Made by a program: the position numbers and the translations under genes
Notes under the pieces: model-generated
What the model saw: the letters and a program-made list of their open reading frames with translations, nothing else
The model's database searches: none
What the model was told of the DNA's origin: nothing
From: Liolophura sinensis
Taxonomy: Eukaryota > Mollusca > Polyplacophora > Chitonida > Chitonidae
Length of the DNA: 64,000 nt
Assembly (NCBI RefSeq): GCF_032854445.1
Contig: NC_088307.1
Coordinates: forward strand, 23,695,953 to 23,759,952
Reading direction: 5' to 3'
Shown: positions 2,884 through 39,600 of the stretch, one piece after another
How the letters are laid out: every line of letters starts with the position of its first letter
Numbering within the stretch: position 1 is the stretch's first letter

Positions 2884-5668
2884 AAAACATCAGATCATTG
2901 TACTTTTCTTGTACAAAACATGTCATAATCATTATGTACATATCATATGAACATTTGAACACTGATACCCTGTCAGGAATCCAGTCAATTACAGTGTTAC
3001 ATGTATTCAGCACAAATTAACATTAAGGACTTTATTCGTGACAGTCTTACATGAAGGACCATACTTGTGTTAAATGGCATGAAATTAATGTAACATGAAA
3101 TCAGCCTTGACAGCAAGACTTGCCAGTTATCATCCATATTTACAGTGTGTTCATGTGTCAGTCCTATCATATTAAAGCCAATTCACATTGAGATGTGGGA
3201 TTTTGAACGGAACGAACTGTATCCCTGATAACGTTTTTCAGCATTTTTCAAGTGACACAATTTGCTTTATTCTGAATCACTAGCTTAAAAGAGTTTTTTG
3301 GTGAAGTTTTGTCAAGTACTTATCAGAAATTTGGCATCAAAAATATCATTTTAATGTCTTAACATTCTTATGATAGAACATTTTTACACACCAACCTTCA
3401 ACTTTTAAGTGAAATACAGTAGTATTGGAAATCTGTGCTGTAATCTCAAAATCATTAGGGTTCATTTTGATTTTATCACCATCCACTAATAGTGATAAAT
3501 GGTGATAAAATATACCACTAGCCTTTGGCAAGTCACTGACAAACTTTCCCACGTCAGATATACAGATATGCACACCACATTTGTGAAAGACAAGTGTTTG
3601 CAGGTATGCTTGGAGTTTAATGTTGTACTTAACAATTTTTCAGTCATATGATGACGAGAGGCATGTCTATATATAGTGGCAGAGCGATTCCATGCTCACC
3701 CAGTCACATTATGCTCACTCTCCGCCAACCAGTCATGTTTCCTTCTCTAAACTCTCAGTGCTGAGCACCAAGCGAGGTAGCAGCAAGTACCATTCTTAAA
3801 CTCTTTGGTATGTTGAGAGACAAGTGGTCTAAAAAAAACGTCAGACTGTCCAAACCATCTACAAATTCCTAGTCAGAGACTGAAATTCAACTTGTACCTC
3901 ATGCATTCTAGTGATTGGAAGAGAACTCTTAAATAAATCTTAACTGTAATTGTAGTCTTTATTATTCATGAATAATGAGAATTGTCACAATTTGACATTT
4001 TGAGGACAGTGCAGGTGTCACGACTGAGTTCCAGGTTAAATGTAGATGACACACAGTTGCTCAGGAACTGAGTATTGTTCTAAACATGCCAGCATGTCAT
4101 TCCTTGTTTGTCCTAGTTCACACTTTCCAACCTTCAACCTTGTCAACCTTCCAGGCACCCTTTTCAGAGGAGTATATGCATACATTTAGGACAATGACAC
4201 TAAAAACGACTTCTTTGTGGGACTCAAGATGCATGCTTCATCAACTGCCAATTATTTCTCTACACTTCATAGTTCTCTGAGAATGTTTCACAATACTGGC
4301 TGCAGAGGTGGTTGAAGAATTAGGGTACGGGTACACTCAAAATTGGCATATCATCTTGGAGAAACAGTAACGTTCCAGTCTTTTTGGTGTCAGAAGTATG
4401 TTTCAAAGTTCCAATTTTCCATGGCATTCTATGCCATTATAATTTACTGAAACAAACTGATATACCCTGTAACTTGCTTTCACTGTCATTTCACTGATGC
4501 TGGTGACTTTTAACTTCTCCGGACTCCTTATTGCTCCTTATTATATTACTCCTTATATGTACTAGTAGATTTTCCGAACTTCATACACTGTATTAAGACA
4601 CATATTCTTCCAACTGCTTCTTCTGTGCAGATTCTCCCAACTTCTGCTCAGGCGCAGATTCTCCTAACTGCTGCTTGTTTGTGGATTCTCCCGACTGGCT
4701 ATGACTATCTGTGTCTGTAAATACAACACAAAAATAAACATCAGTGAAAAACAACGCAGTAACTCCCTTTTTCCGACAACATTGTCAATCTGGATTGCTA
4801 CCGCTATGGACAAAAGCACTGACTTAGTGCATAATTTCATTCCCATGAATTCATCATCTTTGAAACAAATGACAAATTCAGTCTGCCGTATAAATATGGC
4901 TGCGATATCACTGATATCCAGATTCAGAACAGACCACCATAAAATGTGATCTTTTAAAAATAACTTCTTCTGTTGAGAAATTTGGCATAAAAAACAATTA
5001 ATAATAGTGTTTTCTTTCTGAAAAAGCATCAGTAGAAATACCATTAAACACTGTATCTGAAAGTACCTTAACTTGTTTGGGTTTTATTAGATTTTGGGGA
5101 GGGGGTGAGGGCATAATTAATTGCAGTCAAATGTTTGCATTTTAAGGTGAGCTTGAAGTATCACGTTGATTTAGTCCTCAGTGACATCGTAACGAGTTTT
5201 TACACCTTAAGGTTCAGATCTAAATAAAAATCTTGTGACCTCTCACAATTGTGAACAAAAAAAGTGAATGTGGCATTATGGTTAAATTCCTGTTTCAGGG
5301 ATAGAGAACAGTGAATATGACATTAGTGACAACATTCTAACTCTATCAATCTATTCATAACTCCCACCTCTCAATCCAACAATTGCCTGCATTTTATTCT
5401 GTAAAAATTATCTAAATGAATGAATGAATGATTATGGCTTAACGCCACATTGGCAATTTTGCAGCCATGTCGTGGCGAGAACAGGTTTAAAACAGGAGAC
5501 AGTGAATGGTTTTCAATACAATGGAGGACACTTAACATAAAACCAAAATAGACGAACATGTTTAAAACCACTTTATAAAAGAACCAAACCTTTGATAAAA
5601 ATCGAAAACTACAATATAATTATAACTATATATAATAAGTGTATGTATATATGATTTATTTGTATATA
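2884..5668. other. Intergenic region between convergent ankyrin and ZNHIT6 genes
   Basis: No convincing exon. It holds one arm of a dispersed foldback family at 4185-4325 (shared with 16840, 38965, 62430 and 62925), a CAGATTCTCC-type imperfect tandem at 4625-4695, and two fragments (3615-3670 and 5420-5500) of other dispersed repeats containing ACAATTTTTCAGTCAT and GGCTTAACGCCAC. Confidence 0.55.
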
Positions 5669-5974: not shown

Positions 5975-6359
5975 TCACAAGGCTGAAAATTTGTTTCCCA
6001 CTGACAACATATGATCCCTAAACTGACAAAAATAGGCCATACTTACAGAATTCTTTGTTGAGTCTAACACATCCATATCAGAAAAATAGGTGTGATAATC
6101 GGGAAACTGTTGAAAATTACCATTAAGGGAAAGATATTCTATGATAAGCCCAATAAATAATTCTGCAGGGTCTATTGAGTTACCTCCAGGGAACATATTT
6201 TTTATGATAGCCTTACTCCCTAAGAAATTTTTACCTTGGTGTACAAAGCTGTACTGTGACAGCTGTTCAGGCAATACAACCTCCAACGTTGGGAATTCTA
6301 TGATTGTTTTCCCTTTCAAATTGTTACCAATGGTCTCCTTCATGTCCAGCTTGTGGTAC
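5975..6359 (-). CDS. ZNHIT6: ZNHIT6 exon 7 (terminal)
   Basis: Acceptor TTTGCCTAG|G. Encodes YHKLDMKETIGNNLKGK, then IIEFPTLEVVL and a lineage-specific 98-residue tail ending at TGA (5977-5975). Confidence 0.92.
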
Positions 6360-9300
6360 CTAGGCAAATAAGGATTTGATACAGAAGATTAATCAGAGCA
6401 TATCTGTCTAAACCAGACAAGAAATCTCCAATTTCATGTGTACTTTCACTATTCTTAATAATGTACTTTGTTTCTGAGCTTTCACCCAAACTGGAGCAAA
6501 AGTGGACAATAATTTGTGAAATCTGTCTTTAAATTGAAGATTCACTCATGTTTTTATTAATTTATCATTTCTACACTTATGACAAAATGTATTTTCGCTA
6601 CGCAATATAAATATATACCTTCAAACTTAAAGGAGAAGAAAATTTAAAAATCTTAATAAACCACTGAAAAGAGTTTGCATTTCCTCGCAGGTGCATGCCA
6701 TAAAAAAAGTTGCTCAAGTTCATTAATTGTAAATAATTTCAGCGCCAAAATCCGCTGTGGGTGTCTCCATTTTGCCTAAGAATTAGTCCTGAAGTCTTCT
6801 GTGTTAGGAGGAGAATTTCTATCGGAAAGCGCCGAAATGCAGTTCGTACATTTCCAGTAGAAAATGGACGTGACCTGCCAACTGCCGGTACTTCGCGTTG
6901 CTTCGGTGATTTCCGAAGCAACGATCGGGAAAACCGGAATGACGATCGGGAAAACCGGAATGCTGGACGTAGGTTCCGAGTTTAAACGAACAAGCTGGCA
7001 GTTTGAATGACTCTCATTGGCTGAGAGGCAACACCCCCCCAGCATAAATTACAGGGTGTTAAAGATGGAGGACGCGATGGACTCGGCTATTTATGCCAGC
7101 TTTGCCGTTTTCAGATTTAAAGTGTATGGCGAGGAAAAATCGGAAAAATTGCAAAATTACGCAGGCACTACCAAATAGAAAAAAATGTGCTCTTTTCAGC
7201 CTAAAGCGCCATTTAAAAAATTTTCTTCTCCTTTAATGAAGATTTAGATTCCTAAGAATTTCATTATTAAGAAAAGTAACAGGACAATTTTCCACAGAAT
7301 CTACATTTACACACAATATTTGTTATTTGATTGGTGTTTTACACTGTACTCAAGAATATTTTACTTATATGATGGCCAGAATTATGGTGGGAAGAAATTA
7401 ACCCGCGATCATCCGCTGGTCGGCAACCGTTCCACGTACGATTGGAGAAAAAGCCAGACTGAGCATGAACTTGATTTGAACTCAAAGTGACTGCAGTGTT
7501 GAGAGGCTTCTGGGTCATTGCGCAGTGCTGGCATACTAACCACCTTGACCACAGAGGGCCCTTACACACAATAACACTATATTGTAATTATTTATTTATT
7601 TGATTGGTGTTTTACGCTGTACTCAAGAATATTTCACTTATACGATGGCGGCCAATATTATGGTGGGTGGAAACCGGGCAGAGCCTGGGGGAAACCCACG
7701 ACCATCCGCAGGTTGCTGGCAGACCTTCCCACGTACGGGCGGAGATGAAGCCAGCATGAGCTGGACTTGAACTCACAGTGACCGCAGTGTTGAGAGGCTT
7801 CTGGGTCATTGCACAGTGCTGGCATACTAACCACCTTGACCACAGAGGGCCCTTACACACAATAACACTATATTGTAGTTATAGTTATTTATTTATTTTA
7901 TTGGTGTTTTACGCCGTACTCAAAAATATTTCACTTATACGACAGCAGCCAACTCTTGGACTTGAACTCACAGCGACAGCATTGGTGAGAGGCTTCTGGG
8001 TCACTATGCTGCGCTAGCGAGCTAACCGACTGAGCCACGGAGGCCCCTGTAGTTATAGTTATATTATACACTGCACCTTGGTGTATTGGCACATGCTCCC
8101 TCGACCCTCATACAGATGGCACAATTCTCTGTCCCCACTCTGACAAAATCCCGCAATTTGTGTCGTATCACTGGGTCTGACTCCGTGGGGTGAAGGTAAC
8201 GCTTCAATGCCTCCTCTAATATCGTGTCCTCGCTGACTCTTTACGCAACAGAATGAAAAAAAAAAGCAATCTATTCAAATATCAATTCGAGTTTAATCAT
8301 GATTAATATCACTTTTTTTTTCAGGTGTGAGTTTTTTCTAAAGTTTTATTTGATCGTGTTTTTGGTGTTTACGCGGAATATTTCACTTATACACTGACAG
8401 CCAACATTATGGTGAGAGGAAACCGGGCAGTGCCCAGGGGAAATACAAGTCTAACCAATACGAGCCGTCAGAGCTTCTCTGTTTGGTTCAGAGCTACAGG
8501 AGTGACAAGCACATCGAATTTCTTCCGAAATGGTTTGTATGATTGTAAAAACAGATTGTCAAAGAACCCTGAGTTATTTTTTTTTTCAAGTTGCCATCCA
8601 ATTTGACCCTCAGGAGGACATGAACTTACAGAACAAGACAGAATGATTTTGTACCCCCAAAAGATAGCCGCACCTGCTCTTGCCATTTTTCATCTGAAAG
8701 TTATGAGAGGAATACAGCTAGCTGGATTTAGATTCGGCAACAATGGGAGCCACAGTCAACTAAAACCTCAAGCTTAACAGAACAAACTGACAGACAGCAA
8801 ATCTCTGTACACGAAGGCCGACATCCATATCTATATTGTACACTGCTGTATAGACAGCAAATCTCTCTACACTAACGCCGATGTCCACATTTATATTGTA
8901 CATGACTGTACAGACAGCAAATCTTTGTACACTAATGCCGATGTCCACATTTATATTGTACACCACTATATAGACAGCAGATCTCTCTACACTAACACCG
9001 ATGTCCACATTTATATTGTAGACCACTATATAGACAGCAGATCTCTCTACACTAACGCCAATGTCCACATTTATATTGTACACGACTGTACAGACAGCAG
9101 ATCTCTCTACACTAACGCCGATGTCCACATTTATATTGTACACCACTATATAGACAGCAAATCTCTCTACACTAACGCCGATGTCCACATTTATATTGTA
9201 CACCACTATATAGACAGCAGATCTCTCTACACTAACGCCGATGTCCACATTTATATTGTACACGACTGTACAGACAGCAGATCTCTTTACACTAACGCCG

Positions 9301-12300
9301 ATGTCCACATTTATATTGTACACCACTATATAGACAGCAAATCTCTGTACACTAATGCCGATGTCCACATTTATATTGTACATCACTATATAGACAGCAG
9401 ATCTCTCTACACTAACGCCGATGTCCACATTTATATTGTAGACCACTATATAGACAGCAGATCTCTCTACACTAACGCCAATGTCCACATTTATATTGTA
9501 CACGACTGTACAGACAGCAGATCTCTCTACACTAATGCCGATGTCCACATTTATATTGTACACCACTATATAGACAGCAAATCTCTCTACACTAATGCCG
9601 ATGTCCACATTTATATTGTACATCACTATATAGACAGCAGATCTCTCTACACTAACGCCGATGTCCACATTTATATTGTACACCACTATATAGACAGCAA
9701 ATCTCTCTACACTAACGCCGATGTCCACATTTATATTGTACACCACTACATAGACAGCAAATCTCTCTACACTAATGCCGATGTCCACATTTATATTGTA
9801 CACCACTATATAGACAGCAGATCTCTGTACACTAACGCCGATGTCCACATTTATATTGTACACCACTATATAGACAGCAGATCTCTGTACACTAACGCCA
9901 ATGTCCACATTTATATTGTACACCACTATATAGACAGCAAATCTCTCTACACTAACGCCGATGTCCACATTTATATTGTACACAGCTATATAGACAGCAA
10001 ATCTCTGTGCACTAACGCTGTTGTCCACATTTATATTGTACACCACTATATAGACAGCAAATCTCTCTACACTAACGCTGATGTCCACATTTATATTGTA
10101 CACAGCTATATAGGTATACAAGCAGGCTATTCACAGTGAGAACAATAACATTCAGTAGTCTTCACATAAAGGTGTGAATTTTTAATACCTCGGGGGAATA
10201 GAATGATATTTATTGTGAAGCGGACAGAAAGAAAGAATAGTAAGTAAATATAACATTCCGAGATATACACTTGAAATCTACAATGTAAGCAATAGTTTAC
10301 CAATCTGCATTGCCAGTGCGATTGGACATGCCTTGACAAAATCAGATTCAATGTCTGAAAACTCAGGATCTGAAATCTGGCAATAAATGCCAGTGCCATA
10401 AATCGGAACTTCAAAGTTGTCCACTATGGGTTCAAATTGATTCCATTAGAGTCCATTTAAAAAACTACACCGTTTTCATAGAAATTCCCAGGTTATTTAG
10501 GCCACCTAGACTTAGGTTGGCCATCTGTGACGTCACCTGCTGAGCGGCATCGGGGAGCTGGCTGGAGACCAGCTACATGTAACACAGTAAATCTATTGTT
10601 TTGATGGATTTAAAGTCATGATTACGTTCCTCAAAAGAAGACCTCCGACAAATATTCTGCTTTAACAGATTATTATCTCTATAATTATTTATTCATTTAT
10701 TTGATTGGTGTTTCATGTCATACTCAAGGCTTCTGGGTCATTGCGCAGTGCTGGCATACTAACCACCTTGACCACAGAGGGCCCTTACACACAATAACAC
10801 TATACTTGTAGTTATTTATTTATTTATTTCATTGGTGTTTTACGCCATACTCAAGACTACTTCACTTATACGACAGCGGCCAGCAGTATGGTGGGTGGAA
10901 ACCGGGCAGAGCCCAGGGGAAAACCACGATCATCCGCAGGTTGCTGGAAGACCTTGCCACATACCGCCAGAGTCTCTATAATTAGGACCACAAGTTAAAT
11001 CTGGACACTAATCCTTTAATATTGTGTGTGATAAATGCTGAAGATACAGGTTTACAGTATCAAGTTTCACTGACACATGTAAATGTTTATATCAGCTCAT
11101 TTCATTGGAGGATGCATTTAGTGGGGAGTGGTTATCATCAGCTCAGCTTGATTGACGCGTCTATAATGTCATGAAGATGTAAGATCAGTTGTCACTCACC
11201 TGTTGTCTGTGTACTTGGCCCCTGCCCCTGGAAACACCCATTCTATGTGCCACATGAATTTCTCCTCCCTATGGTCAAACGGAAACAAATTCTGACAACT
11301 GTGACAGGCTCTACAGCATATGAATACAACGCAACATATTTGAAATATTCGTAAAAAAATGAAACACCCACCTTATCCTATCCCAAATCAACAATGTCCA
11401 GACAAACCCATCAAAACTTCTTCAGCAGAAGAAATACAGAATCGACACTTCATGGCTGGAGCGAACGTTACCTGATGCCATAACTTTGGAACACAAAAGC
11501 TTCATATTTGCTCAAATCAGGTAATTAACAAGATTCTAAATCAAGAACTTCACTCTTTCTTACACCTCTTTTTTATCTACAAAGAAACACCCTATTGCAC
11601 TATTCTTAGCATTCCCCAAATTACATCCGGATTTGGGGGAAATGTATTTTGGGGATTGAATGTCACAATTTTACTGCATAAATAGTGACATGAAGTAACA
11701 CGAAGTCTCCTTCATGAAGGGAAGTAATCCAATGAGTTTTGGCAACTTCAAAGTTTTTCCCCCTGTTCCACCAAAGGTACATGCAACTTGTTTGCTAATA
11801 ATGGAACACATCCATTGCCATCAATATACCCAGAGCTGAATCTGACTATCGGGTAGTGATATTAATTTCAACATGAATTACTTGAGATCCTAATTTTTTT
11901 TTCAACTTTTGGAATAAAATGTACTAGATCTAAACAAAACAGTAATCCCTGTTGATCGCTCTTTCTTGCTTTCCCAGCCAAACACGGCCCACCCCCAAAA
12001 TGTAATTCTGTCAGTTACGACCATCAACAGATCCATGTACAGAAAATAGATCATAATTTACACCATCAATAACATACCTTTACACAATCAGTAACATACC
12101 TTTACACAATCAGTAACATACCTTTACACAATCAGTAACATACCTTTACACAATCAGTAATCAGTAACATACCTTTACACAATCAGTAACATACCTTTAC
12201 ACAATCAGTAATCAGTAACATACCTTTACACAATCAGTAACATACCTTTACACAATCAGTAATCAGTAACATACCTTTACACAATCAGTAACATACCTTT

Positions 12301-15300
12301 ACACAATCAGTAACATACCTTTACACAATCAGTAACATACCTTTACACAATCAGTAATCAGTAACATACCTTTACACAACCAGTAACATACCTTTACACA
12401 ACCAGTAACATACCTTTACACAATCAGTAACATACCTTTACACAATCAGTAATCAGTAACATACCTTTACACAATCAGTAATCAGTAACATACCTTTACA
12501 CAATCAGTAATCAGTAACATACCTTTACACAATCAGTAACATACCTTTACACAATCAGTAACATACCTTTACACAATCAGTAACATACCTTTACACAACC
12601 AGTAACATACCTTTACACAATCAGTAATCAGTAACATACCTTTACACAATCAGTAACATACCTTTACACAACCAGTAACATACCTTTACACGATCAGTAA
12701 TCAGTAACATACCTTTACACAATCAGTAACGTACCTTTACACAATCAGTAACATACCTTTTCCAGTATACCGTGGTATTTGACTTCCTCTTCTCGAAATT
12801 ATATGGTAAGATCTGAAGATCAATTCTTCTTTTTCTGGCTTGAGACACTAATTTGTGCAACTGAAAACAAGAATAGTCAGTTTACAACAATCTCCACTGA
12901 ATGATTTGTCATGCTTTACGTTCACAAGAATACACATACTTCAGCAATAATGAGTGGGAAGAGGCACAAGGCATTCAGAGAATACCGATAGCTCACCTGA
13001 TTGAGCAGTTTGTAAAACTGCATAATGTTCAAGTCATGTGATACGTACGTTCAAATACTGACCTCTAAACCAAACCAAAGAAGTAGAATAATTGACACTA
13101 ATATTATCCTCCAATTATAGTGCTAAGATCTTGCCATTAAATCAGTAAGAAAGACTAAAACTATAATACTGTCACAACTATGCTGTTTATCGTATGTGTA
13201 AGGATTTCAGAGCAGTGACTTCATATGTTATGGAGTTGTAAATCATTGTGGTGGTAAAAGACACTATTGGCAGTTGGAGACAAATTTACCACATAGGTCT
13301 TTGATATGCAAATTGCGAACTGCATCTAGCATTCAATGTACGATGGGACGCAATTGCAACTCTGTGAATAGCTGAGCAAAATGTTGAGCTATGAACTAAA
13401 AGACTTCCTTGGTCTTTGATATGCAAATTGCCACTGATAACTGGCTATCTGTATGCTACGGGTGGCCACTGCAACCCTATGATTGGCCAAACTGGACACT
13501 GACCCCATCTGATCCCCCTTTCACAATACCTCTCCTTACTTTGAAAGGCGAGCTAACCAGAGGAAAACATCAACTTTGATCCTGTACAAAATGTACCCAG
13601 CCTCCCAACTTAATCATCCAAATGACCGACATTTATCTTTTCAAATTTGCGTTTTTATTGCATATTTTCATATTTTTTCAATTTATTTATTTGATTTGTG
13701 TTTTATGCTGTATATTTCACTTATACAACGGCAACCAGCATTATGGTGGGAGGAAACAGAGCGAGGGGGAAACACACGACCATCTGCAGGATACTGACAG
13801 GCCTTTCCATGTATGACTGAAAAGAGGAAGCCAACATGAGCGGGACTTGAACTCACAAAGTCTGCTGTAGAGTTACTTTTTTTATTACAGCAATGAACAC
13901 CTCAAGACAGGCGATCGGTAAAGTAATATCAGCAAAAGATACATAACATTTTTTTACAAACCACATGACACAGGATACTTTTACACATACAACGCGTTGC
14001 ACAAGTCACAACAGATATTAAACAAACAACATGTTGATTACAACAACACCTTATTAGTATGACTCAGTATCTGGTGCACATACAACGCGTTGCACAAGTC
14101 ACAACAGATAGGAAATAAACAACATGTTGATTACAACAACACTTCATTAGTATGACTCAGTATCTGGTGCACATACAACGAGTTAAACACAGAATGCCAT
14201 GAAAAGTACTTATGCAACAAGCTGAAGATATGTAATATGTTGAAGCAAAAGCACAGCAGCTATTGCACGTGAAACACAAACCTGTTAATACCATATGGTC
14301 AATGCTAAATCCTGGCTAGTGTTCATTTATTTCTTGTATGTATGTCTATACCGTAATTCTTCAAACTTTTTGCACATTTCCAAGGTGTTTATTTAAGCAT
14401 ATTCTGAAGGCATTTTTCTGTATTGACTAACAAAATTTTACCCCTTTTTTTAAAAACTTATTGTGAAGCCCTGGAATTGATCGATCTACTTAGGGTAGCC
14501 TTTACGTCGTACTTAACAATTTTTCAGTCATAGACAAAGACAAATTTGGTTTGGCTCTGCTCAGAATTGAACTGCTGAAAAGTGTCATTTCCTTGTAAGG
14601 TGTTTAAGGCATACACTCTAAAAACTACACAGCCACTACCATGTATGAACAAATTTAGGATCTCAAGATGGATTTTGGACCACAAAATATTGCTAAAACT
14701 AATTTTTTAAAAAAATGAGCTAATTCTGATGTTTAGAGAAAAGTTTCTATTAAATCATACAAACTTTCAGGAAATTCATATATAATATATATACATAACA
14801 CTGCAATTTTCATTTTGTAAAATCTGAGCCTTATTACAAATAAAAACAGAAGGCAACATTTCTGTATTAAAATGACATGCAACAAAGCAAGAATTTTAAA
14901 TGATTACTTGGGAAGAAAACCAATTAAATGTTAGTTTTCCATTTTGAGCATGAAACAGCCACAAGAAGATCTAAAACTTTCCAGCCTTTGAAGTTTTTAT
15001 CCAATGACTCTCCACACTTTACTCAAGTTCCTATACCTGATTGACTTTGGGTTTAGTCTCCCGTGGAAACAGGCAATCCTGACGGCAATCATGCACCCAA
15101 ATGGTGGATTCAAGGCCCCAGGGGGAAAAGCGCTTCGGCAGATAGCCTATTGCCATTTCGCAAATTCACAATTTATACCTCAAAAAGTCGCACACATTTC
15201 TTTATCCCTCCGACGAATTTCTTCTGGAGAAACATTATCAGGTTTGCTAGACTGGAATAATTTCGTTTCGGACGACATTTATTTAGCGAGCTGTGGTTTC

Positions 15301-18300
15301 GCAGTGTTGCTGGATAGATTTACGTTTGCACACTCGCGCAAGACATTATCCATTTCCTGCTCAAATTAGATTTGAGCTTGGAGCCGTCACAGAGCTAACA
15401 CTCCCCATCTGCCGAATCTTCCGCAAGCAGGCTTCACTCATTTCTGAGCGAAAGTACTTTACGGAGCTAAAGACAGGGACAAATCACTGCATCAGATCTA
15501 CAACATCATCAACTATCGACTTTTTCCTTGTTTCCAAGTGTCCAAATCACTGCACAAGAGAGCAAATAAAAGAAATCAGAAAAAAAGATTCAGCCAAGGC
15601 AACTAACCATTTTAAATACAAACATTACATGTAAATACGATTCAGGTGATTTTAATCACACAACAGAAAATAAATGCATTTTTTTTTTAATCCATTAATG
15701 AGAAGGCTATTAAATGATTGATGTCTATGCTGCCAGGGGTATATCTGTATACCACAAAGTTTACAGTACTGGGGCTGTATCTGGAGCCATTCTAGTGCCA
15801 GAAAACATTTGGGTACCCAAATTCATCAAGATGTATTGAAACTAACAAGTAAATTGAACAAAAATATGATGGTTTACAAACAAATATCTTTCATTTAAAG
15901 ACTTAAAAGCTCTCAGTAAGCACAATTTTTTAGTTGCATTCATAAAATGTTTTATGCACAGTCAAAATGTCACCTTTAAAGTTTGCGATCATAACCCTCA
16001 AGTCTTTTTCTAGTCATGACCTCTGGCATGTACAGGTACCTTGAAATGCACAACAAATACCCGCCATACAAAAATATTTTCGAATACCCTTTTCTCTTGA
16101 AAAAAAAAAAATCCCCAAAAATATTAAAGTTATTAAGAAAATAAATTTTGATGCTCTTTCATCTCATTTTGGCATCATTTTTATGTTTTCTTCTCCTTTA
16201 ACTTTTTTCCTGATACATAAGAACAAATTGTTTACGCCTGAACTTAGCCACGTTTACTTTATCTGATGCTCCGACTTTTTCCATTCTCAAAAGTTATCAG
16301 AGATAGAACAGAGAGAGTTGCAACTGATGTTCTTGCTGCACAGCCCAAAAATAGCTTATGAATCTTGGGTGCCATAATTTGGGCTAAAATTGATAAAGCA
16401 TAAATATGTACAATATGCAGCAGAAATCTAAATTATGTCAATTTCAGCGTCTGAAAACAACAATTTAGACCAAACAAGAGTTTTATAACCTTAAACTACG
16501 CCTGCCATGGCAGAATAAAAGACAATGTCATGTTAACGAAAAAATGTATTTATTTATTTATTTCACTGCTATTTTACGCAGTACTCAAATATTTCACTTA
16601 TAGGACGGCGGCCAGCATAATGGTGGGAGGAAACCGGGCAGAGCCCAGGAGAAACCCACGATCATCTGCAGGTTGCTGTCAGATCTTCCCAGCCGGAGAG
16701 GAAGCCAGCATGAGCTGGACTTGAACTCGCAGCTGTTAACGAAAAAAGACACTGGATTGTCATATCTAAAACTTGTCATATTATATCACAAAGCCATGCA
16801 GTTCTTCAATAGTACCGTTGACATGGAAACACTTCTATATCCTAATCCTTTAACCCTTTCCCCCTACTGCAACCAACATTTTGAAACATTCTGAGAGAGC
16901 TATGGGGTGTCGAGAGATAATCTGCACTGTTTTATCTTCAGTCACGAAAACAAATCATTTCGTGTCATTTTCATGGTAATTACATGCATAAATTTCACTG
17001 AAAAAAGTGCTTTAGTGGTCGAAAACATCACACACTTACATTATATGCATAATCAAAAGGGTCACGGCTTAGTACATTTTACAGGAATATGACTTGTTTT
17101 CAACAACGGTCTGCTCCGGAGGTACAGACAAAAATGTGAACACAATTTCCAACTCTCCATATTGATGCAGTTCTGAAGATACAGTGGTAACAACAAACAA
17201 TACGTTCAGACAGATGGACAGACAGACAGATGGACAGACGGACAGGCAGACAGGAAGACAGACAGATGGACAGACAGATGGGCAGACGAACATTATCAGA
17301 CAGATGGACAGACGAACATTATCATACTACACAGAGATTATTAGTACTCTGTGCGGATATGCTTCGTTCTCTGCGATTGCGTTCTCTGCGATTACGACAA
17401 TGCAGATCAGCACAGTGTACTGATAATCTATTTATCATATACCTCCTATAAAAGCTATTTTGGGACACTGAAATCCAGGTATATACCTCGAACTCTGCTG
17501 CTTTGCGCATTATCTGGTAGCGTGATGGCCTGAACAAAGCTTTCAAACCATTATGCGCGTGTGGAGCTCGTTCTAAATATAGCATAGTTCAATAGTTCAC
17601 AACCGCAGTTTATATGAAGAAAAAAAAAGAACAGACAAACAGAAAGTCATGTAAAACAATGAAAAGGTAATTTATAAAACATCCTGTATGTGTAACGGTG
17701 CTTTGAAAAACTTTTTTTTTAAAAACAATCAACATACGGTCAATTTTTGAAAAACCAAAAATCTAAACTTCATCTTCATTGGGACTAACCAGTGGCGTCA
17801 AGTGGTACACTTTGATATATTGCCTGTGGAATTTTGTGAAAAAAAAAACGCATCGTTCTGTAATGGAAAAGTACTGGATGGGACACACGAGTCCATCTTT
17901 GGATGTAGTGTGTTGGTTGGACAGGGCTACCCTTGATGTGGGAGGCTACATGTGACGTGCATTTGAAATGATGGGGCTCATTTTTTCCCTGCATACCGAC
18001 ACTGTGAGAAGCGACAGCGTAACTACCGATGACTGCAACATTTTTGTGACCACTGAGTTGCTATACCAGCATGAAGCAGTTGGGTTTTACTAGCACTAGG
18101 CTATGGTTTGTTAAATGGCCAGGTAAGATAGATTTTTTTGCCACAGTCTTCATTATGGATCTCAGAGTTATGAACTTTCTCATTAGCTGACATTTATACC
18201 ACAAACTATTGGAAGCTTTTCCCCTGTAGTTGATGGCAAGGTAAAATGGCGATAACGCTTAATTTGTAAATAGTCTGAACGGTAAATCTGGCCTGAAATG

Positions 18301-21300
18301 ACAGCTGTATGCGCCACGAAATAGAATCCGGTGATACAAAAAATCACAAAGCAGATGCCTTTGATAATGGCCTGCAGACAGTGTAGAAAATTAAAATTTT
18401 CCCATGGTTTTAAGGACAGTAAATCGCATATTCATGTAAGTAGGTCAACACTGCATGTAAATTCCCGTTTAAGAAGACCGGGGCTTTTCCAGCCAGAGGT
18501 TACCCAGTGCAAAAGTAGTTCGGCGTGTACAAACAAACAGAGATATGGCAATAGGGAAAACAGAAGATACCAATACAGAAAAAACATTGGTTGGGTTTGA
18601 ATCGTGCACTTAGCAGACAGAGGTATGTGATAATGTATAATATTTATTTATTTATTTGATTGTTGTATTACGCCGAACTCAAGAATATTTCAATTATAAG
18701 ATGAAGGTCAGGGGGAAACACATGACCATCCATACATTGGTGAGAGGCTCCGAAACCACTGCGCAGCACTGTCATGCTACCCCCCTCGGCCATGGAGGCC
18801 CCTCAGTTCTTAAGATATAGTGGTAACAAAAAACAATACGGACGTACAGATGAACTGACAGATGGACAGACGAACACCACCATGCTATACTGTATAATAA
18901 ACTGACAGATGGACAGACAAACACCACCATACTATACTCTATAATAAACTGACAGATGGACAGACAAGCACCACCATACTATACTCTATAATAAACTGAC
19001 AGATGGACAGACAAACACCACCATACTATACTGTATACTAAACTGACAGATGGACAGACACACACCACCATACTATACTGTAGAATAAACTGACAGATGG
19101 ACAGACAAACACCACCATACTATACTCTATAATAAACTGACAGATGGACAGACAAACACCACCATACTATACTCTATAATAAACTGACAGATGGACAGAC
19201 AAACACCACCATACTATACTGTATAATAAACTGACTGATGGACAGACGAACACCACCATTCCATACTGTGTAATAAACTGACAGATGGACAGGCGAACAC
19301 CACCATACTATACCGTATAATAAACTGACAGATGCACAGACGAACACCACCATACTATACCGTATAATAAACTGACAGATGGACAGACGAACACCACCAT
19401 ACTATACTGTATAATTAACTGACAGATGGACAGACCCACACCACCATACTATACTGTATAATAAACTGACAGATGGAGAGATGAACGCCACCATTCTATA
19501 CTGTGTAATAAACTGACAGATGGACAGACGAACACCACCATTCTATACTGTGTAATAAACTGACAGATGGACAGTCGAACACCACCATACTATACCGTAA
19601 AATAAAATGCAAACGAACTACTTCATGGATCAGAGGCTAATAATTCTGCGCTGTTTTACTTCATATTTGTGTATCAGTTTTAGCAAAAGATACAAAAAAT
19701 AGGCCTAAAAAACTGCACGAAAAACCAACACATAAGATTTGTCCAAAAACAAAGTGATAAATGATCATGCAAGCATTACATCCAATCATGTGACACCAAT
19801 GTCAGCGGCTGATGTGAGACTTGAAGTGGCTGTATCAACTTTAACCAGTAATGGCTCGCGACTGATATATAAATACTCATTACGCACAATCTGGGCTGCC
19901 AATGCAAACTCGTCAAGTGCAAATGTGTGCATTCTTGCCGTTCAAAGCATCATAAATGCGAAGAAAGGAAGCACACCTCAATGAACACCACATATATCAT
20001 GTAAGCAAAAGATAATTGCGTTGCTGTGGCAACCGACAGCTTTTGTTTCTCAACAGTTCTTCCTGCACACGTACAATAGCATGAGGGGAAAAAAAAAAAA
20101 AAAAATCTCTGTCCAAAGTCTGTGTCATTTTGCTTCCTGGCGAAAAGCCAAATGCCACAAATCAGAAAACATGTATAGACCTAGTTGTTCAGGATTTGAC
20201 TTGCATACATGCACATCTACACCGTATGTACACACAGGAATTCACGTATATATACCATGTACATTTATATTAATAGAGGTTAACATAAATCAATTAATTT
20301 AATAAGAATTATGTTTACGTTCTAAATATTTTCAAATCGCTTACATATATTTTCTAGCAACAAATATTTGCCATGGTAAACGTTTTTTTTTATGGAGATT
20401 GCTTAAATCTTTCTGAAATGTAAAAAGCATTCTGTGGACATACTGCCTCTATTTACTTATTTGACTGAGTTTCACGGAATACTAAAGAAATTTTCGCTTT
20501 TTAAAATGGTAATCAGTGTTACATGATTGTTTGGAGATGTCATTGCTCAGTTATGGAGTCAGGAGCTCTAAAAACATACATCTTACATTAGAGCCCAGTC
20601 TGAAAATAAATTAATAAATTCTTGTAGGACATAACTGGCAAATTTTCTAGCAGTGTTTGTCTTGTATCAAACAATTGGGCCCTGTCAAAGTACTATAATA
20701 GTACAATTCAATATACATGTATATAGATAATCAATTGAAGATAATGAAATGGACACAAAATAACTGGTTTTCTTTGTATTAACTTTTCAAAGCCCTAAAT
20801 AAATCAAGAAAACATGTGGCACTGTATGAGATTTGGGGGAGGGGGGGTGTACAAAGCTTTTGACTTTCTTTTCTGACTATCCCGTATTACAAGTTTCACA
20901 CAGTAGGGAAAGGTCAGACACTTTTGGTCAATGGCTGGAAATATATTAAATATAGTTTTATAGTTGTAAACTGAACAGTGGAGAATTTGAACATGTATTG
21001 TGGCTCAAGTGGGGCAGTGGACAGCTTTCTTATACGTTTTGTTTAAATTCAAGAGCAGATCGAGATAATTCTCCCTCCAGTTCCCTTAGAATACTTGAAA
21101 TCTTGTACAATTTTGTCATGAACTGGCTTCTGGTTGACATGGTTGAGGACTTCAGCAACAAGACTTCAGCTTCTCATAATATTTTTCAATAAAGCCAATT
21201 TATAATCTGTACAAAGATGTCCACAGTTGTTTATTTATTAGTTTGACTGGTCTTTTACGTCGTCCTCAAGAATGTTTCACTTATACGATGGCGGCCAGCA

Positions 21301-24300
21301 TGATGGTGGAAGGAAACTAGGCAGAGCCCGGGGAAACACGCAACCATTCACAGGTTGCCGGCAAACCTTATTAACACGTACAACCAGAGATGAAGACAGT
21401 ATGAGCTGGACTTGAACTCATAGCGGCCGAATTGGTGAGAGGATCCTGGGGCATTTCGCTGTGCTGGCGTGTTAACCCCCTCGGGCATGGAGGCCCCCAA
21501 ATGTCCACAGTTGCCTGACCATACCCTAACCTTGATGTTAGTACTATAATAACTTGTACAATAGTACCCTACTAATATTCATCACAAGTAAAGAGAAACG
21601 TAAAGACTCGTAAGAGAAATGTAAAGACTCGTAAGGGAAATGTAAAGACTGGTAACAAAAATGCAAATTCTCACATATCTGGATTTGTCTCTGCGTCCAT
21701 GTTGTCTGGACTGTCGGGCAGCATTGTCCGTCTTTCTTGCAACATCTTCCAGGAAATGATAATCTGCAAACATCACACTAGAATTTTTCAATCTACATTG
21801 CTTGCAGGAAATCACTTCCTTGTTTTCCGTAAGGTTTTAAGACAGCATTTTTGTGAGCATTTTAGTAACCAATGACAACCAGTTTCCTGCCTGTGTTTAC
21901 AAGAAATCCATTAGCAAACCAAAGAAATAACAATTTTTTTTTCGTGGTAAAAAGTCTTGCAAGTTGCACATCTCTGTGAAAAGAACAAAAATCCATTTCC
22001 ATGTCATTATTTATTAGAGGATTTCATCTCTTTATTTTCATGAGAAAAGCATCGAAACTCTATGTGCAGCTTTATGATATTTGTTAAGCTTTTAAGATGC
22101 CTTTTACGATTCCTTTATTGTGAAAACTTTGAAAAGCTGTATAAATACTCTGAAAAAAAAACAACAACAAAAAAACCCCCTTGAAACAAGAACTACATTA
22201 ATTACACATGTATCCACATAAACCAGTTTCCATGGAAACTTCAGTCCAATAAAACAAGCCTGGAACAATGTAAGGGGACAAAATGATTTGTATATGACCT
22301 TCAAGGATGAAGGGAATATAAAACTGTGAGAAATGTACACCTTATGCATATTCTAGAAATAAACCTAAACTAAATATGTACATGCATATTCTAAGCGTTT
22401 AGAATGGTGCTGCAATCAGGACCTATCTGACACATTTCCCCTGCCCCTCTTCATTTGATTTTGAATTTTTTTCTCTTTTTTTTTTTTGCAAAGGGTACAA
22501 AACGTGGTTCACAACTTCAACAAATAAGATTAATCTGCACATAACTGAAAGTAAAATTTTCAGCCTTAAGCTACTATAAAGCTGTGTACAAATTTCAACC
22601 TCAATACTACTGAGTTACTTCAACAAGTTGCTGGAACTATTTCAGCTCTACTTGGATCCCACACATTATTAAAGCCAAGTATTGCCGATGTTTCGCAGGA
22701 GGGTAAATGGCCCTAAAGCACTCGAGGGTATGCACTGATGACAGACATTAGGAGTGCCCAGTCAATGCGTTGTCTTAGTTACAGAGAACCTTGTCGAAAA
22801 CAAGACAATATCCGCTCCACCAGGACGTCGTCGGGACAAATTCACCAATCAGGGAAAAGCTAATGGCCCACAGCAAGTCTGAGCACTCGCTGAATTTGTC
22901 GCAGAAGTGAAGTGGTTTTGTTGTTGATAGCTGGAGCAAACAGAAAATAACACTTTTCAAATCACAGCCAGACGGCCAATCACGCATCTGTAGACGTCTC
23001 CACAACTGCATCATCATGCCAACAAAGGCAAGGCGTACGAATCCAAAGTGAAGGTGAAACCCAAGAAAAAGAAAAAACGACTTTAATAACAACGGACAAG
23101 CCTGATTTCAGAGTCAAGATGGGAAAGCTCTTAAAGACTTCTAAAGTTCAAATATTTTTAAACAACCAAACACGTCTGACCACCTCATATTAATTAGCAA
23201 GTAGACGGAAAAACGTGTCGCCAATGATCTTTGATTTTTTTTTTCTTCTAAATTCTACAGATGGTGTATTACATGCCTGTGGATGACATACTATACAAAC
23301 ACACACTTTGTGGAACATTAAGTGAATGAATGATAACATTCGCACAACTTCGCAAATATTGGATTTGGTAATTTGTGACACCTTGAACAAAGACTTAAAA
23401 TTTATTTATTTTATTTATTTGATTGGTGTTTTACAATATTTCACTTATATGACGATAGCTAGCATTATGGTTGCTGTCAGCCCTTCCCACTTGCAGCCAC
23501 AGAGGAAGCCAGCATGAGCTGGACTTGAACTCGTACTGACCGCATTGGTGAGAGGTTTCTGGGTCATTATGAACCAATATGAATATTTGTATGCAATCTA
23601 TGATTTCGCCTGTGTCTTAAGTTACTCATTTTGTCCGATTCTTAGAGTTCTGTTCGTAATAGAAAAATGCTTCTTTAAAAGGAACGATGAAATCCTGCTG
23701 GTAAAACATTATGGTTTCAACTCCAAAAGTAATATTTTATGGCCTCTGATAATCTGCGGCCTCGGCCTCTAAAAATGCAGTTTTGCAGTCAAAATTTTCA
23801 AAGGTGGAGAAAACATAACAAAAGATGTGAAAAGAAGAGTGCGATAAGTTAGTTGTAAATGTGATTTTCAATATTTTTTTCTATTTCTCTTCAAAGGGAA
23901 AAAAGACACTTGAAAATAAATTTAGTAAGGCAGGTATCCGAGATCACCTCTTGATATATACCGTCTTTGAATAATGACATTATAAACAAGGAGATATCAC
24001 GTATAGTAAATATATTTGCACCAGAATTTGGTCTATTCAGATAACAAATGTGTTCAACCTGGATTTTCATCATCTTTATATCTTTAATATATACATAATT
24101 ATTATCATAATTTAGACTAAATGCATGCGCAACACATTTATATTCAAATAAATTTATAAGACACATACATCACATCCTCATTTAGATCATCATTATGCAA
24201 AGAGGTGTCCTAAATACCCACCAGACAAAAATATTTTCAAATACCCCCTTCTCTTGAAAGAAAAAAAAATTGTTTCTTTTCTTCCCCTTTAAGACAAATA

Positions 24301-27300
24301 CAGTAGTTACTTATATACTGGAGCATTTTTCCACTGATTGTGTGAATTCCCCCTTTAGGAGTGGAGTACCGGGAGTCAAATTCATGGTGGTTCACTTGAT
24401 TTCTGTCAAACGTCCACAACTGGAAGTCAGAGCTGAACCAATATTAACTGGATGTAAACCGGTGGCCTCAAAGCTCAAGGACTTGGGAAGTGGCCCCCAC
24501 TAATAAAAGGCCCACACAATTTCCTGAACAGTTTTCCTTCAGATATTATCAAGAATCAACTCTTCACTTACCACTCAAAAGATTGTTGGCCCAGAATGTA
24601 CTGATAGTATTGCATCAAATCTTATATTGTTCAGAATCAACCATGTCAACCCTCCACTTACCACTCAGAAGATAGTTGTCCCAGAATGTACTGACTGTTT
24701 TCCTTCTACTCTATTATTGTCAAGATCAACCCTCCACTTACCACTCAAAAGATAGTTGTCCCAGAATGTACTGATTGTTTTCCTTCTACTCTATTATTGT
24801 CAAGATCAACCCTCCACTTACCACTCAAAAGATAGTTGTCCCAGAATGTACTGATTGTTTTCCTTCTACTCTATTATTGTCAAGATCAACCCTCCACTTA
24901 CCACTCAAAAGATTGTTGTCCCAGAATGTACTGATTGTTTTCCTTCTACTCTATTATTGTCAAGATCAACCCTCCACTTACCACTCAAAAGATTGTTGTC
25001 CAAGAATGTACTGATTGTTTTCCTTCTACTCTATTATTGTCAAGATCAACCCTCCACTTACCACTCAAAAGATTGTTGTCCCAGAATGTACTGACTGTTT
25101 TCCTTCTACTCTATTATTGTCAAGATCAACCCTCCACTTACCACTCAAAAGATTGTTGTCCAAGAATGTACTGATTGTTTTCCTTCTACTCTATTATTGT
25201 CAAGATCAACCCTCCACTTACCACTCAAAAGATTGTCCCAGAATGCACTGACACTTTTGCATCAAATTTTATATTGTTCAGAATCAACCATGTCAACCCT
25301 GCACTTACCACTTAAAAGACTGTTGTCCAAGAATGTACTGATAGTTTCCTTCAAATCTTATAGTGTCAAGAATCAACCCTCTGCTTACCACTAAAAAGAC
25401 CATTGTCCCAGAATGCACTGATAATTTTGCATCAAATCTTACATTGTTCAGAATCAACCATGTCTACTCTTCACTTACCCTTCCAAAGATTGTTGTCCAA
25501 GAATGTATTGATAGTTTCCTTCAAATATTATAGTGTCAAGACTCAACCCTCCACCTACCACTCAAAAGATTGTTGTCAGAGAAGGCCTTTATTGGTACAA
25601 ATGCTGTCTTGTCCCTCAGGCCATTGCATGACTTTTCCTCTTTGTGTTTCTTCACGCATGCAACACAACATGTTCTCACTCCACATCTCGGGCATTTGTA
25701 TTTTGCCGACACTTCGTTGCAAACTTCACAACTGTAAAAAAAGTGCGAGAAAGACAATACAGATGTATTTCTTATTTATTTTTGTTGACTGGTGTTGAAT
25801 GTCATACTCAAATGCTGCTCCTTTGTATGACGTCAGATTCAGGAGGAAACCTGAGCGCCCAAACACATTTGGTTTTTAACACCATGCTCAATTGGTTTTT
25901 AACACCATGTTCAATTGGTTTTTAACACCATACTCAATTGGTTTTTCACACCATACTCAAGAACATTCCATTTATAACATGGCAGTCAGTACACCCACAT
26001 GAGCATCATCACTGAACCGCTTATTTTACAATGTGGCAGTCAGTACACCCACATGAGCATCACCACTGAACCACTTATTTTACAATGTGGCGGTCAGTAC
26101 ACCCACATGAGCATCATCACTGAACCGCTTATTTTACAATGTGGCAGTCAGTACACCCACATGAGCATCATCACTGAACCACTTATTTTACAATGTGGCA
26201 GTCAGTACACCCACATGAGCATCATCACTGAACCGCTTATTTTACAATGTGGCAGTCAGTACACCCACATGAGCATCATCACTGAACCGCTTATTTTACA
26301 ATGTAGCGGTCAGTACACCCACATGAGCATCATCACTGAACCACTTATTTTACAATGTGGCAGTCAGTACACCCACATGAGCATCATCACTGAACCACTT
26401 ATTTTACAATGTGGCAGTCAGTACACCCACATGAGCATCATCACTGAACCGCTTACTTTACAATGTGGCAGTCAGTACACCCACATGAGCATCATCACTG
26501 AACCACTTATTTTACAATGTGGCAGCCAGTACACCCACATGAGCATCATCACTGAATCGCTTATTTTACAATGTGGCAGTCAGTACACCCACATGAGCAT
26601 CATCACTGAACCACTTATTTTACAATGTGGCAGCCAGTACACCCACATGAGCATCATCACTGAACCACTTATTTTACAATGTGGCAGTCAGTACACCCAC
26701 ATGAGCATCATCACTGAACCGCTTATTTTAGAACATGGCAGTCAGTACACCCACATGAGCATCATCACTGAACTGCTTATTTTAGGGCATGGCAGTCAGT
26801 ACACCCACATGAGCATCATCACTGAATCGCTTATTTTACAATGTGGCAGTCAGTACACCCACATGAGCATCACCACTGAACCACTTATATACAATGTGGC
26901 AGTCAGTACACCCACATGAGCATCATCACTGAACCACTTATTTTACAATGTGGCAGTCAGTACACCCACATGAGCATCATCACTGAACCGCTTATTTTAG
27001 AACATGGCGGTCAGTGCCCCCACATGGGCATCATCATTGAACCGCTAATTTTATAACATGGCGGTCAGAACACCCACATGGGCATCATCATTGAACCGCT
27101 AATTTTATAACATGGCGGTCAGAACACCCCACATGAGAATCATCATTCACCAAGGACCACCCAGGATAATTTTTCCAAAATACATGTTTATGTCTCTGAA
27201 TGATGACTCCCCCAAAAGGGGTTTAGATTCTAAATTAGCAGAATTACAGTTGAGATCAAGCAATTTGATGCTGGTGGTATCAAAGGTCTACTAGTTAATA

Positions 27301-36600: not shown

Positions 36601-39600
36601 GTATGAGATGACTATTGGGTACTGATGGACCTCAGTGCAATCAGTATGAAGGGGAAAGGTCACTATAGTTCAAGGCCGTGAGCAGCTGTATGTGTGCATG
36701 CTGTACCAGTTTGTACTGACATATACTCATGCAGACTTTGCAGCATTTTAATTCCTTGATTCAGCATGGTACCATATATAACTGCAGGAAGACTTTTGCA
36801 GGAATCTTTTACTAGCTGATTTTATCCATTTTCATCTATCTTACATATATCTGATATACATGTGCACCTGTTCACCATCCTTGCTTCATATCGGAGCACA
36901 GTAACTCTTTAGCAAATTTCTGTCATCGCAGTGTGAATGATTTCTTCTAGCGACATATAATATATGATTGATAATTTTTTTGAAAACTACATGGCTGCTC
37001 TGATATTGTACCTTGCTAAGAAATAAAATTGAAATATAAAGAAACAAACTATTAATAAATATATTTTAAAAGGATAGACTTATGTATAAAATATGCTGTG
37101 CTGTACAAAAAAGTGAGATTTAATCACTATTTTAAATTCATATACAAAAGACTTTAATTTATCTCTGCATGCCAGTAACTTAATTGCCAAAGGTTGATGG
37201 TTCATTGCAGAAATCCATATCTGATCACCTATAAATACTGGCCACCATTGGAAAGCTCTTGAGGAATTGCCAAAAAAAATTTCAGTATGGTGTTAAAGCA
37301 ACCATCAAATAATTATATGAATATTAAATATATTGTAAACACTTATTAAGCAGTGTCTGGTGTATCTGGCATGATGCTGTGCATGCTCTTCAGTGGTGGA
37401 AGCACTTTGGTGGCATGGACTAGCACACCATAGGAAGACATAGTATGGACTGGCACACCACAGGAAGACATAGTATGGACTGGCACACCACAGGAAGACA
37501 CAGTATGGTCTGGCACACCACAGGAAGACACAGTATGGTCTGGCACACCACGGGAAGACACAGTATGGACTGGCACACCACAGGAAGACACAGTACGGAC
37601 TGGCACATCACAGGAAGACACAGTATGGACTGGCACGCCACAGGAAGCCACAGTATGGACTGGTACACCACAGGAAGGCACAATACGGACTGGCACACCA
37701 CAGGAAGACACAATACGGACAGGCACACCACAGGAAGACACAGTATGGGCTGGCACGCCACAGGAAGCCACAGTATGGACTGGTACACCACAGGAAGGCA
37801 CAATACGGACTGGCACACCACAGGAAGACACAATACGGACTGGCACACCACAGGAAGACACAGTATGGACTGGCACAGGAATACACAGTATGGACTGGCA
37901 CACCACAGGAAGATACAGTACGGACTGGCACACCACAGGAAGACACAGTACGGACTGGCACATCACAGGAAGACACAGTATGGACTGGTACACCACAGGA
38001 AGCCACAGTATGGACTGGCACACCACAGGAAGGCACAATACGGACTGGCACACCACAGGAAGACACAGTATTGACTGGCACACCGCAGGAAGACACAGTA
38101 TTTACACACACACACACACACGCACAGTGCATGTATATGATTTTTCGTAATATGACTGCAAAATTGTTAAGTACAAAATTGTAAAGTAACCTTAAGCACA
38201 CATGTACATGTACACTTACTGTACTTAAAAGCAAATGCAAAAGCATATATATTATTACAAATCAACATTAGGTAGGGATACGTTAGGTAGGGGTAACAAA
38301 AATTGTATATAACTGTAACATGTACATGTACTGTACAGTGGTATACATGTAGGAGTGGGACTTACACAGACAGTTATGTAAACTGTGTTCATGTGTGATA
38401 CCACCAGTAGGTGGCAGACATCTTGATATGCAAACTTAGCCGTGATGCTATCAGCCCAATGAAAAGTGGCAATAGAAGCTTCGAATCTGTCCCCCCGATC
38501 AGTCCACGGCTAATGACATGGTTAACATCTGGGGGGACAGTTCTTCCCCTCTAGCACGGCTGCTCAGGAAATTTTGGACATTGCGATCTATTATGGAAAG
38601 CGAAATTGATCCCAGCTTTGAGCGGATTGGATGAAGTCGCCGTCGGGCATGGTAGTGCTCTGATTGCAGACAAGAGTGTGGAGATCACTCACCTGATCTG
38701 TGGATGGTTTTCACTGCGCGACATGGCTGTTGGTGACTTGATTCATTACAGCTTTTTTGCTATATAACAGCCTGGTAGTTGTGCGCACACCTTCTACTTT
38801 ATTTTTACATGTAAATGTTATACAGCGTATTTGTACATTATTGGCCTGTATAAGGTGATAAATTTATACTTCTTGTTCTAAAGCTTGGGAGGTTAATTGA
38901 CCATTTTGTAAAGCCATGCAAGTTTGTAATCTCAGAAATCAACATGTCTATTAATTATAGTACTCTAATTCTTCAACCTTTTCAACTGCCACTGTGACCA
39001 AAATTTTGAAACATTCTGGGAGAACTGTGGGGTGTAGAGAAATAATTTGCACAGTTTTATCAAGCTTGCATCTTTAGTGACACACACAAATGATTTCTAG
39101 CATCATTTTTTTAATAATTGTGTACATAAGTTCCACTGAAATAAGTGCTTCGGAGGCCAAAAAGGTTATAGTAAATGCAATGGCATCTCATGTAGGAGAC
39201 CAGGGTTGAAGAGTTGGGTCTTGCGTTAGAAAATTAGGCCATGGCTTAAACGTTGGCAGTCTTGGTTCTTCTGCATTTGGCACTTAAGGCATAAAAGGGT
39301 GTGTCAAGCACAGTGTAGCCTCGCTTTGAGATGCCTCGATATAGTGCCCATTCAGATATAACGTCACCCAAATCTTCTCCCTCAAAAATCTTTGGTGTAC
39401 TTTCATGTGAGAACAGCTAAAATTGCAAATGAATAAAAAATTCTCACCATGAAATATACATAATGCAACATCTTTTGCTTCCTTTCCTTTTGTTGGTGTC
39501 TGACACGTTTTATTTGATATTTTAAGGTTTTGAATATTATGTGAGTATATGCAAAAAGAAATGGATTTTTCTATGAATAATGGAAACTGTTGTAACTAGT

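Follow-up and report, generated by a model that had tools for sequence, protein, structure and literature searches.

Minisatellite-like duplications of exon-intron boundaries have been described as mirages in lancelet genes, where units of 10-160 bp carry AG/GT signals in many copies (PMC3087553). According to the accessible text of that account, both intron boundaries are affected, and the arrays show concerted evolution, divergent edge units, and unstable length. Adh3 data and RT-PCR are presented there as suggesting that regular splicing is undisturbed, and globin splicing is likewise reported to be undisturbed at the BflGb6 and BflGb9 mirages (PMC3087553). The available part of a second report describes mirages in the lancelet TnC and PGBD5 genes, with undisturbed splicing reported for the former and suggested for the latter (PMC3902484).

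Human genes provide two related systems, each summarized here from the accessible portion of its source. The donor minisatellite of IFI6 (6-16, G1P3) has two downstream units that are reported to be used as donors, and three mRNAs result (PMC4526556). In duplicated human genes, variation of boundary minisatellites can activate cryptic splice sites (PMC2812944), and these repeats differ from the arrays described below in that they belong to recent human paralogs and half of them are coding. No earlier report of boundary duplication in molluscs was found in the literature searched, which lies outside most subscription papers, and the mirage papers found concern lancelets. The accessible text of a study of Conus introns describes short simple repeats and contains no boundary duplication (PMC3862624).

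The window analyzed here, a stretch of 64,000 nucleotides within the 609-Mb genome assembly of the chiton Liolophura sinensis, contains a gene on its minus strand with two such arrays, one at exon 2 and one at exon 4. These arrays are mirages, a type of repeat already described in lancelets. As in lancelets, their units span the exon-intron boundary, the authentic exons are kept at the 5' edge of each array with an open joined frame, and splice signals are kept in many copies. The exon 2 array also shares the pattern of concerted evolution and divergent edge copies. Unlike the lancelet cases, the host is a mollusc and two donor mirages reside in one gene, with 12 and 28 extra copies as compared with 6 and 3 repeat units in two haplotypes of BflGb6.

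The host gene is ZNHIT6/BCD1, because a HIT zinc finger is followed by a BCD1 domain in one joined open frame (Table 1). We take its product to be a box C/D snoRNP assembly factor and a helper in building ribosomes. Among solved structures, exon 2 is best matched by the Box C/D snoRNA protein 1 zinc finger (2n94, E 7.6e-8), and matches to the BCD1 domain (PF25790) turn up exon by exon downstream of exon 2. When exons 2 through 7 are joined at their first donors, they yield a single open frame of 246 amino acids, the last few of which may be intronic, that matches the BCD1 domain with E 1.7e-47 and zf-HIT with E 4.3e-8. A productive mRNA therefore needs the first donor. Exon 1 was not found, and thus the joined frame covers exons 2 to 7 only. 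The solved structures matched by ZNHIT6 do not span the join between exons 2 and 3; human ZNHIT6 has NLLSDYRFLEDV where exon 3 here starts with DYHFLEDV. A protein search of the genome with exon 2 returned one place at full identity and three further matches at E 0.13-0.2.

Table 1. Positions in the window of ZNHIT6/BCD1 exons, donor sites, and tandem arrays
Feature	Position	Strand	Basis or remark
Intron 1 array (54 bp x 21.6), some 250 bp upstream of exon 2	25980-27145	.	TRF
Exon 2, HIT zinc finger, ends ...FSDNNLLS + G	25559-25731	-	zf-HIT E 2.1e-9; boundaries and open joined frame
Authentic exon 2 donor GTAGGT	25553-25558	-	in-frame join to exon 3; every decoy would add TGA
In-frame TGA reached by any exon 2 extension past the true donor	25536-25538	-	frame reading
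Intron 2 array, 12 units at 80-90 bp steps	24545-25497	-	sequence read and split into units, TRF
Decoy donor GTs, intron 2 array	25478, 25388, 25308, 25221, 25141, 25061, 24981, 24901, 24821, 24741, 24661, 24571	-	
Exon 3 (DYHFLEDVARK...), acceptor TTTGCAG	21675-21763	-	
21-bp x 3.7 repeat without donor, about 8 nt into intron 3	21591-21667	-	TRF, sequence reading
Exon 4 (LHKLVSQARKRRIDLQ...VYWK), start of BCD1 domain PF25790	12757-12860	-	
Intron 4 array, second mirage, 22-bp units GTATGTTACTGATTGTGTAAAG	12057-12756	-	TRF, sequence reading
Exon 5	11200-11268	-	
Exon 6	8077-8238	-	
Exon 7, 5' part	6218-6359	-	3' end not fixed; possible donor GT at 6234

The true boundary between exon 2 and intron 2 reads GACAACAATCTTTTGAGTG/GTAGGT (25577-25553, minus strand; the slash marks the junction), so that the donor junction is GTG/GTAGGT. 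Twelve units, counted one by one, follow it, as an earlier sequence-only reading had held; they start at 25497, 25407, 25327, 25240, 25160, 25080, 25000, 24920, 24840, 24760, 24680, and 24590 on the minus strand. The interval of 24545-25731 given by that reading contains the array and also takes in exon 2, whose start is its upper end. TRF scores the array at 1211, with 11.4 copies over 24646-25577, which is far above chance. A genome search placed the array at one site, and the missing second match in one assembly does not prove absence.

Each unit combines the end of exon 2 with about 60 nt of intron. The proposal that exon sequence had been copied was correct, but the copied part is 19 nt rather than about 18, with a phase-1 junction (AGT G/GT), and it is degenerate. 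Measured against the 27-nt exon-end-plus-GTAAGTGG, mismatches number 0-2 in eight of the 12 units and 3-6 in units 1-4, which lie closest to exon 2. All 12 units retain the GT, and 11 carry the GTAAGT that had been ascribed to every unit; unit 2 carries GTAAGC. The authentic GTAGGT, which had been read properly, differs from the decoys at +4. Units 4-10 are near-identical, and units 1, 2, 3, 11, and 12 are divergent and form two subtypes. This is the pattern of a minisatellite with a homogenized middle. The exon ends and donors copied in the units support the proposed origin by tandem duplication across the exon-intron boundary.

Reading the frame beyond the true exon 2 donor gives ...GRWRVES and then a stop (...DNNLLSGRWRVES*, 25536), which closes the frame seven codons past the junction. 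The TGA is the eighth codon after the AGT codon of the junction, and thus the prediction of a TGA within eight codons holds. Because this TGA precedes the first decoy (GT at 25478), all 12 decoys would carry it.

The intron 2 case had been treated as singular, but the same gene has a second array at exon 4, and further cases exist elsewhere in the genome. Exon 4 ends with TGGAAAAG/GTATGT at 12757, and the 22-bp units begin directly after it. There are 29 AAAG/GT sites, one true and 28 copied, of which 28 read GTATGT and one reads GTACGT. Exon sequence makes up just about 4 nt of each unit. When read onward, the frame of exon 4 meets a TGA in the second unit.

Other repeats populate the same window. 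Additional minisatellites with 30-60-bp units occur at 8792-10113, 18853-19606, 25980-27145, and 37415-38101; no exon link was seen for any of the four, and no exon copy was recognized in the third, the 54-bp array of intron 1. On both strands, the array at 37415-38101 has several open frames. A short interspersed repeat (gtggctcagt...ggcgtaaaacaccaatcaaataaata), presumably a tRNA-derived SINE, is present in several copies on the minus strand at 7300-8060 and 10600-10990.

The strength of the true donor relative to its copies depends on how it is assessed. The sequence-only reading considered GTAGGT to be the weaker U1 match, and a human-type donor frequency table agrees, with all 12 exon 2 decoys above the true site by a median of 2.6 bits. 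Duplex energies with U1 agree in part: the true donor is at -9.9 kcal/mol, and 10 decoys are stronger (nine at -10.2 and one at -10.8), one is equal, and one is weaker (-8.0). The usual gain is 0.3 kcal/mol. It is thus fair to call the decoys stronger by consensus, but their advantage in pairing energy is slight. At exon 4, 27 of 28 copies equal the true donor, one is weaker, and none is stronger. The further claim that the decoys should outcompete the true donor is not supported, given the small energy gain, the exon 4 copies, the unchanged decoy GT columns of both ZNHIT6 arrays with donor columns that are overall not depleted in the other arrays, and the lancelet mirages reported to splice normally. 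The U1 5' end is the canonical ATACTTACCTG in the three U1 loci read, of 41 genome matches. U1 snRNA genes also form a tandem array, with spacing of mostly about 2 kb, at G000:C10:30033968-30099180.

Donor-bearing arrays also begin at the exon ends of other genes. We fetched 23 arrays with perfect donors, comprising 18 of the 21 counted among the matches listed (about 100 of 187 places) and five more that represent every cluster of at least four donor motifs among the matches listed in a single-motif search; the three left unfetched among the matches listed belong to one repeat family and are relatives of L030. In 11 of the 23 the array starts at an exon end (L009, L011, L015, L016, L018, L020, L021, L022, L023, L025, and L029). 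Three of these 11 exons exceed Pfam cut-offs, matching GH31 (7e-13), SID-1 (5.9e-10), and MH2 of SMAD proteins (1.3e-10). The L025 exon has a PDB match to GTPBP6 (9.4e-9) and an NCBIfam match to HflX (4.5e-9) that is under the whole-protein cut-off of that model. The L016 exon has a weak deoC match (0.0073) and no convincing match to PDB. Six exons were identified by open frame alone, four with a script-found acceptor (L009, L011, L021, and L023) and two by eye (L018 and L029). A convincing exon is absent in the other 12 arrays, one of which (L028) runs off the fetched stretch.

Two of these loci have features of their own. At L015 (G000:C1:26351900-26355600), 39-bp units come after an exon for a GH31 alpha-glucosidase and keep its frame open through seven units until a stop, so that splicing at a nearer decoy would insert 13-residue repeats instead of a stop. 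At L023 (G000:C3:2902900-2906300), the exon apparently ends at the second copy, the first having AT instead of GT, which gives the impression of a boundary shifted downstream by one unit. Elsewhere in the genome, one locus encodes eight haemocyanin beta-sandwich domains in a row (PF14830, best 3.3e-41), which we take to be a molluscan family and which point to a mollusc as the bearer of this genome.

Acceptor-side arrays exist as well. The motif TTTBCAGG in three copies occurs at 455 places versus 172 for the reversed motif, with no single-motif baseline, and these counts are not comparable to the donor counts because the acceptor motif is less specific. A script found exon candidates in three of 14 fetched acceptor-motif arrays (L066, L070, and L072), and the latter two were accepted by reading. 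Both arrays end at an exon in a mirror image of the donor case; L070 is tetraspanin-like (0.0042, under cut-off), and L072 has no family match.

The controls run do not support preferential seeding of arrays at true donors. Three copies of MAGGTAAGT occur at 187 places in the genome versus 115 for the reversed motif, the looser AGGTRWGT in three copies at 3309 versus 2805, and single motifs at 17344 versus 15018, where places are copies and not arrays. Up to 2.98 Mb of C1, the matches listed include five clusters of at least four donor motifs and no such cluster of reversed motifs, but four reversed-motif clusters are reached by 3.55 Mb. One and the same script found exon candidates at 11 of 20 donor arrays versus eight of 20 isolated donor motifs. 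From the array set, L008 and L010 were then dropped as unconvincing and L018 was added by eye, as was L029 from three arrays outside the script (L028-L030); the isolated motifs were neither pruned nor extended by eye. Three of 10 array peptides are above the Pfam cut-off, versus one of eight isolated-motif peptides (calpain).

The reversed-motif control consisted of 12 arrays fetched from 18 counted among the matches listed. None of these 12 showed a bounded exon to the script, and the stretch of L037 ends 109 bases past its array. Inspection by eye together with Pfam revealed that L037 is a mirage at a donor of a matrixin gene on the other strand (E 4.1e-13), making one such case among 12 arrays of a non-splice motif. 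Thus, this control is not free of mirages. L041 has PP2C-like exons nearby (E 0.0027, under cut-off) that its array apparently does not cover. Open frames were extracted from all 12 arrays, whereas Pfam searches covered pieces of L037 and L041 only, and exons beside the other ten may be missed. No preferential seeding is shown. Between 6 and 27.2 kb of the window, itself chosen for one of them, two of the five arrays that have a unit of 20 bp or more and five or more copies span donors.

Selection on the decoys was assessed by aligning each array to its own unit with wrap-around alignment and ranking the donor 9-mer among the windows of the unit by divergence. In the 13 exon-anchored arrays the mean rank is 0.46 (range 0.08-0.92), with the donor 9-mer more divergent than the rest of the unit in L009, L018, L020, L022, and L029 and less so in the other eight. 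The mean rank in the 12 reversed-motif arrays is 0.29. All arrays except the ZNHIT6 pair were picked by motif, which biases ranks downward. The test leans toward conservation because the other-gene arrays were chosen for perfect donors, and even so there is no mean conservation; for the same reason it is weaker as a test against depletion. On average, then, the donor columns are neither specially conserved nor depleted, and their varying like the rest of the unit fits the behavior of silent passengers. The ZNHIT6 arrays rank at 0.11 (exon 2, on the conserved side) and 0.45 (exon 4), and their GT columns are free of mismatches, at exon 4 over about 28 units. The low rank and unchanged GT at exon 2 leave room for constraint on that array.

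We consider it likely that the intron 2 array is a mirage whose host transcript is spliced at the first donor, with the decoys as silent passengers and any misspliced product decayed. A stretch straddling the donor of exon 2 would have been tandemly duplicated into a minisatellite, and the array would then have been partly homogenized, leaving units 4-10 near-identical and older outer units of two subtypes. With the duplicates on the intron side, the first copy would continue to end the exon. The nearest donor would be chosen through exon definition from the upstream acceptor, and the twelve downstream copies would be spliced out. Rare use of a decoy would include the in-frame TGA, with nonsense-mediated decay as the probable outcome. 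Most likely, the arrays are a harmless by-product of local DNA duplication.

The silence of the decoys is not guaranteed, because the comparable minisatellite of human IFI6 supplies donors that are used. The ZNHIT6 arrays resemble that system in having tandem splice-donor copies within a minisatellite. The IFI6 type, however, is one in which downstream copies act as donors for productive mRNAs, whereas use of an exon 2 decoy would truncate the ZNHIT6 protein at a TGA before the first decoy. Productive alternative donors that lengthen the protein have the IFI6 precedent and the in-frame L015 units in their favor, but the closed frame excludes them for the exon 2 array, barring frameshifts, while the 22-bp unit at exon 4 shifts the frame and the exon 4 frame reaches a TGA in the second unit; we regard this reading as extremely improbable. 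The TGA after exon 2 would instead serve regulated unproductive splicing, wherein decoys are used in some tissues and ZNHIT6 is lowered through nonsense-mediated decay. Inclusion of the stop by all 12 decoys, the superiority of 12 by the frequency table and 10 by duplex energy, and the unchanged GT would all suit this purpose. This reading is nevertheless unlikely, given the slight usual energy gain, the lack of stronger decoys in the intron 4 array, the donor columns without extra conservation when the 13 anchored arrays are taken together, and the normal splicing reported in the accessible text on lancelet mirages (PMC3087553, PMC3902484).

It has less probability still that the array acts as a U1-loading platform that aids exon definition or blocks premature polyadenylation in intron 2. 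Such a platform would employ the 12 and 28 additional U1-type sites that lie no more than about 1 kb from two exons, as well as the canonical U1 5' end in three genes read, but donor columns that are no more conserved than the rest of the unit in 13 arrays argue against it. An intermediate of intron gain or boundary shift, in which copies furnish new boundaries and later exons as proposed for the lancelet globins, follows a model set out in the accessible text of PMC3087553, and the L023 exon that apparently ends at a second copy would accord with it. No gained exon was seen in ZNHIT6, whose first copy is used for the in-frame join to exon 3, and we consider this reading very improbable here. 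An assembly artefact is suggested only by the reliance on one assembly; units that diverge and form subtypes, along with like arrays at independent genes, make it exceedingly unlikely.

That boundary mirages are a general feature of the Liolophura sinensis genome, present at the donors of many genes and the acceptors of some, is a tentative proposal that we regard as somewhat doubtful. What draws attention is the host range and frequency of mirages, with two in a single gene and repeated cases across a single genome. The repeated mollusc cases suggest that mirages arise in any setting rich in minisatellites. Each array amounts to a natural contest in which identical or slightly stronger donors are set at regular steps downstream of the real one, and therefore ordinary RNA reads could measure the effects of distance and exon length on donor choice. 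Such reads could also tell whether the arrays feed intron gain. If mirages prove to be general in this animal, it would offer a series of natural experiments on how splicing picks one real exon end from among a dozen or more near-identical copies.
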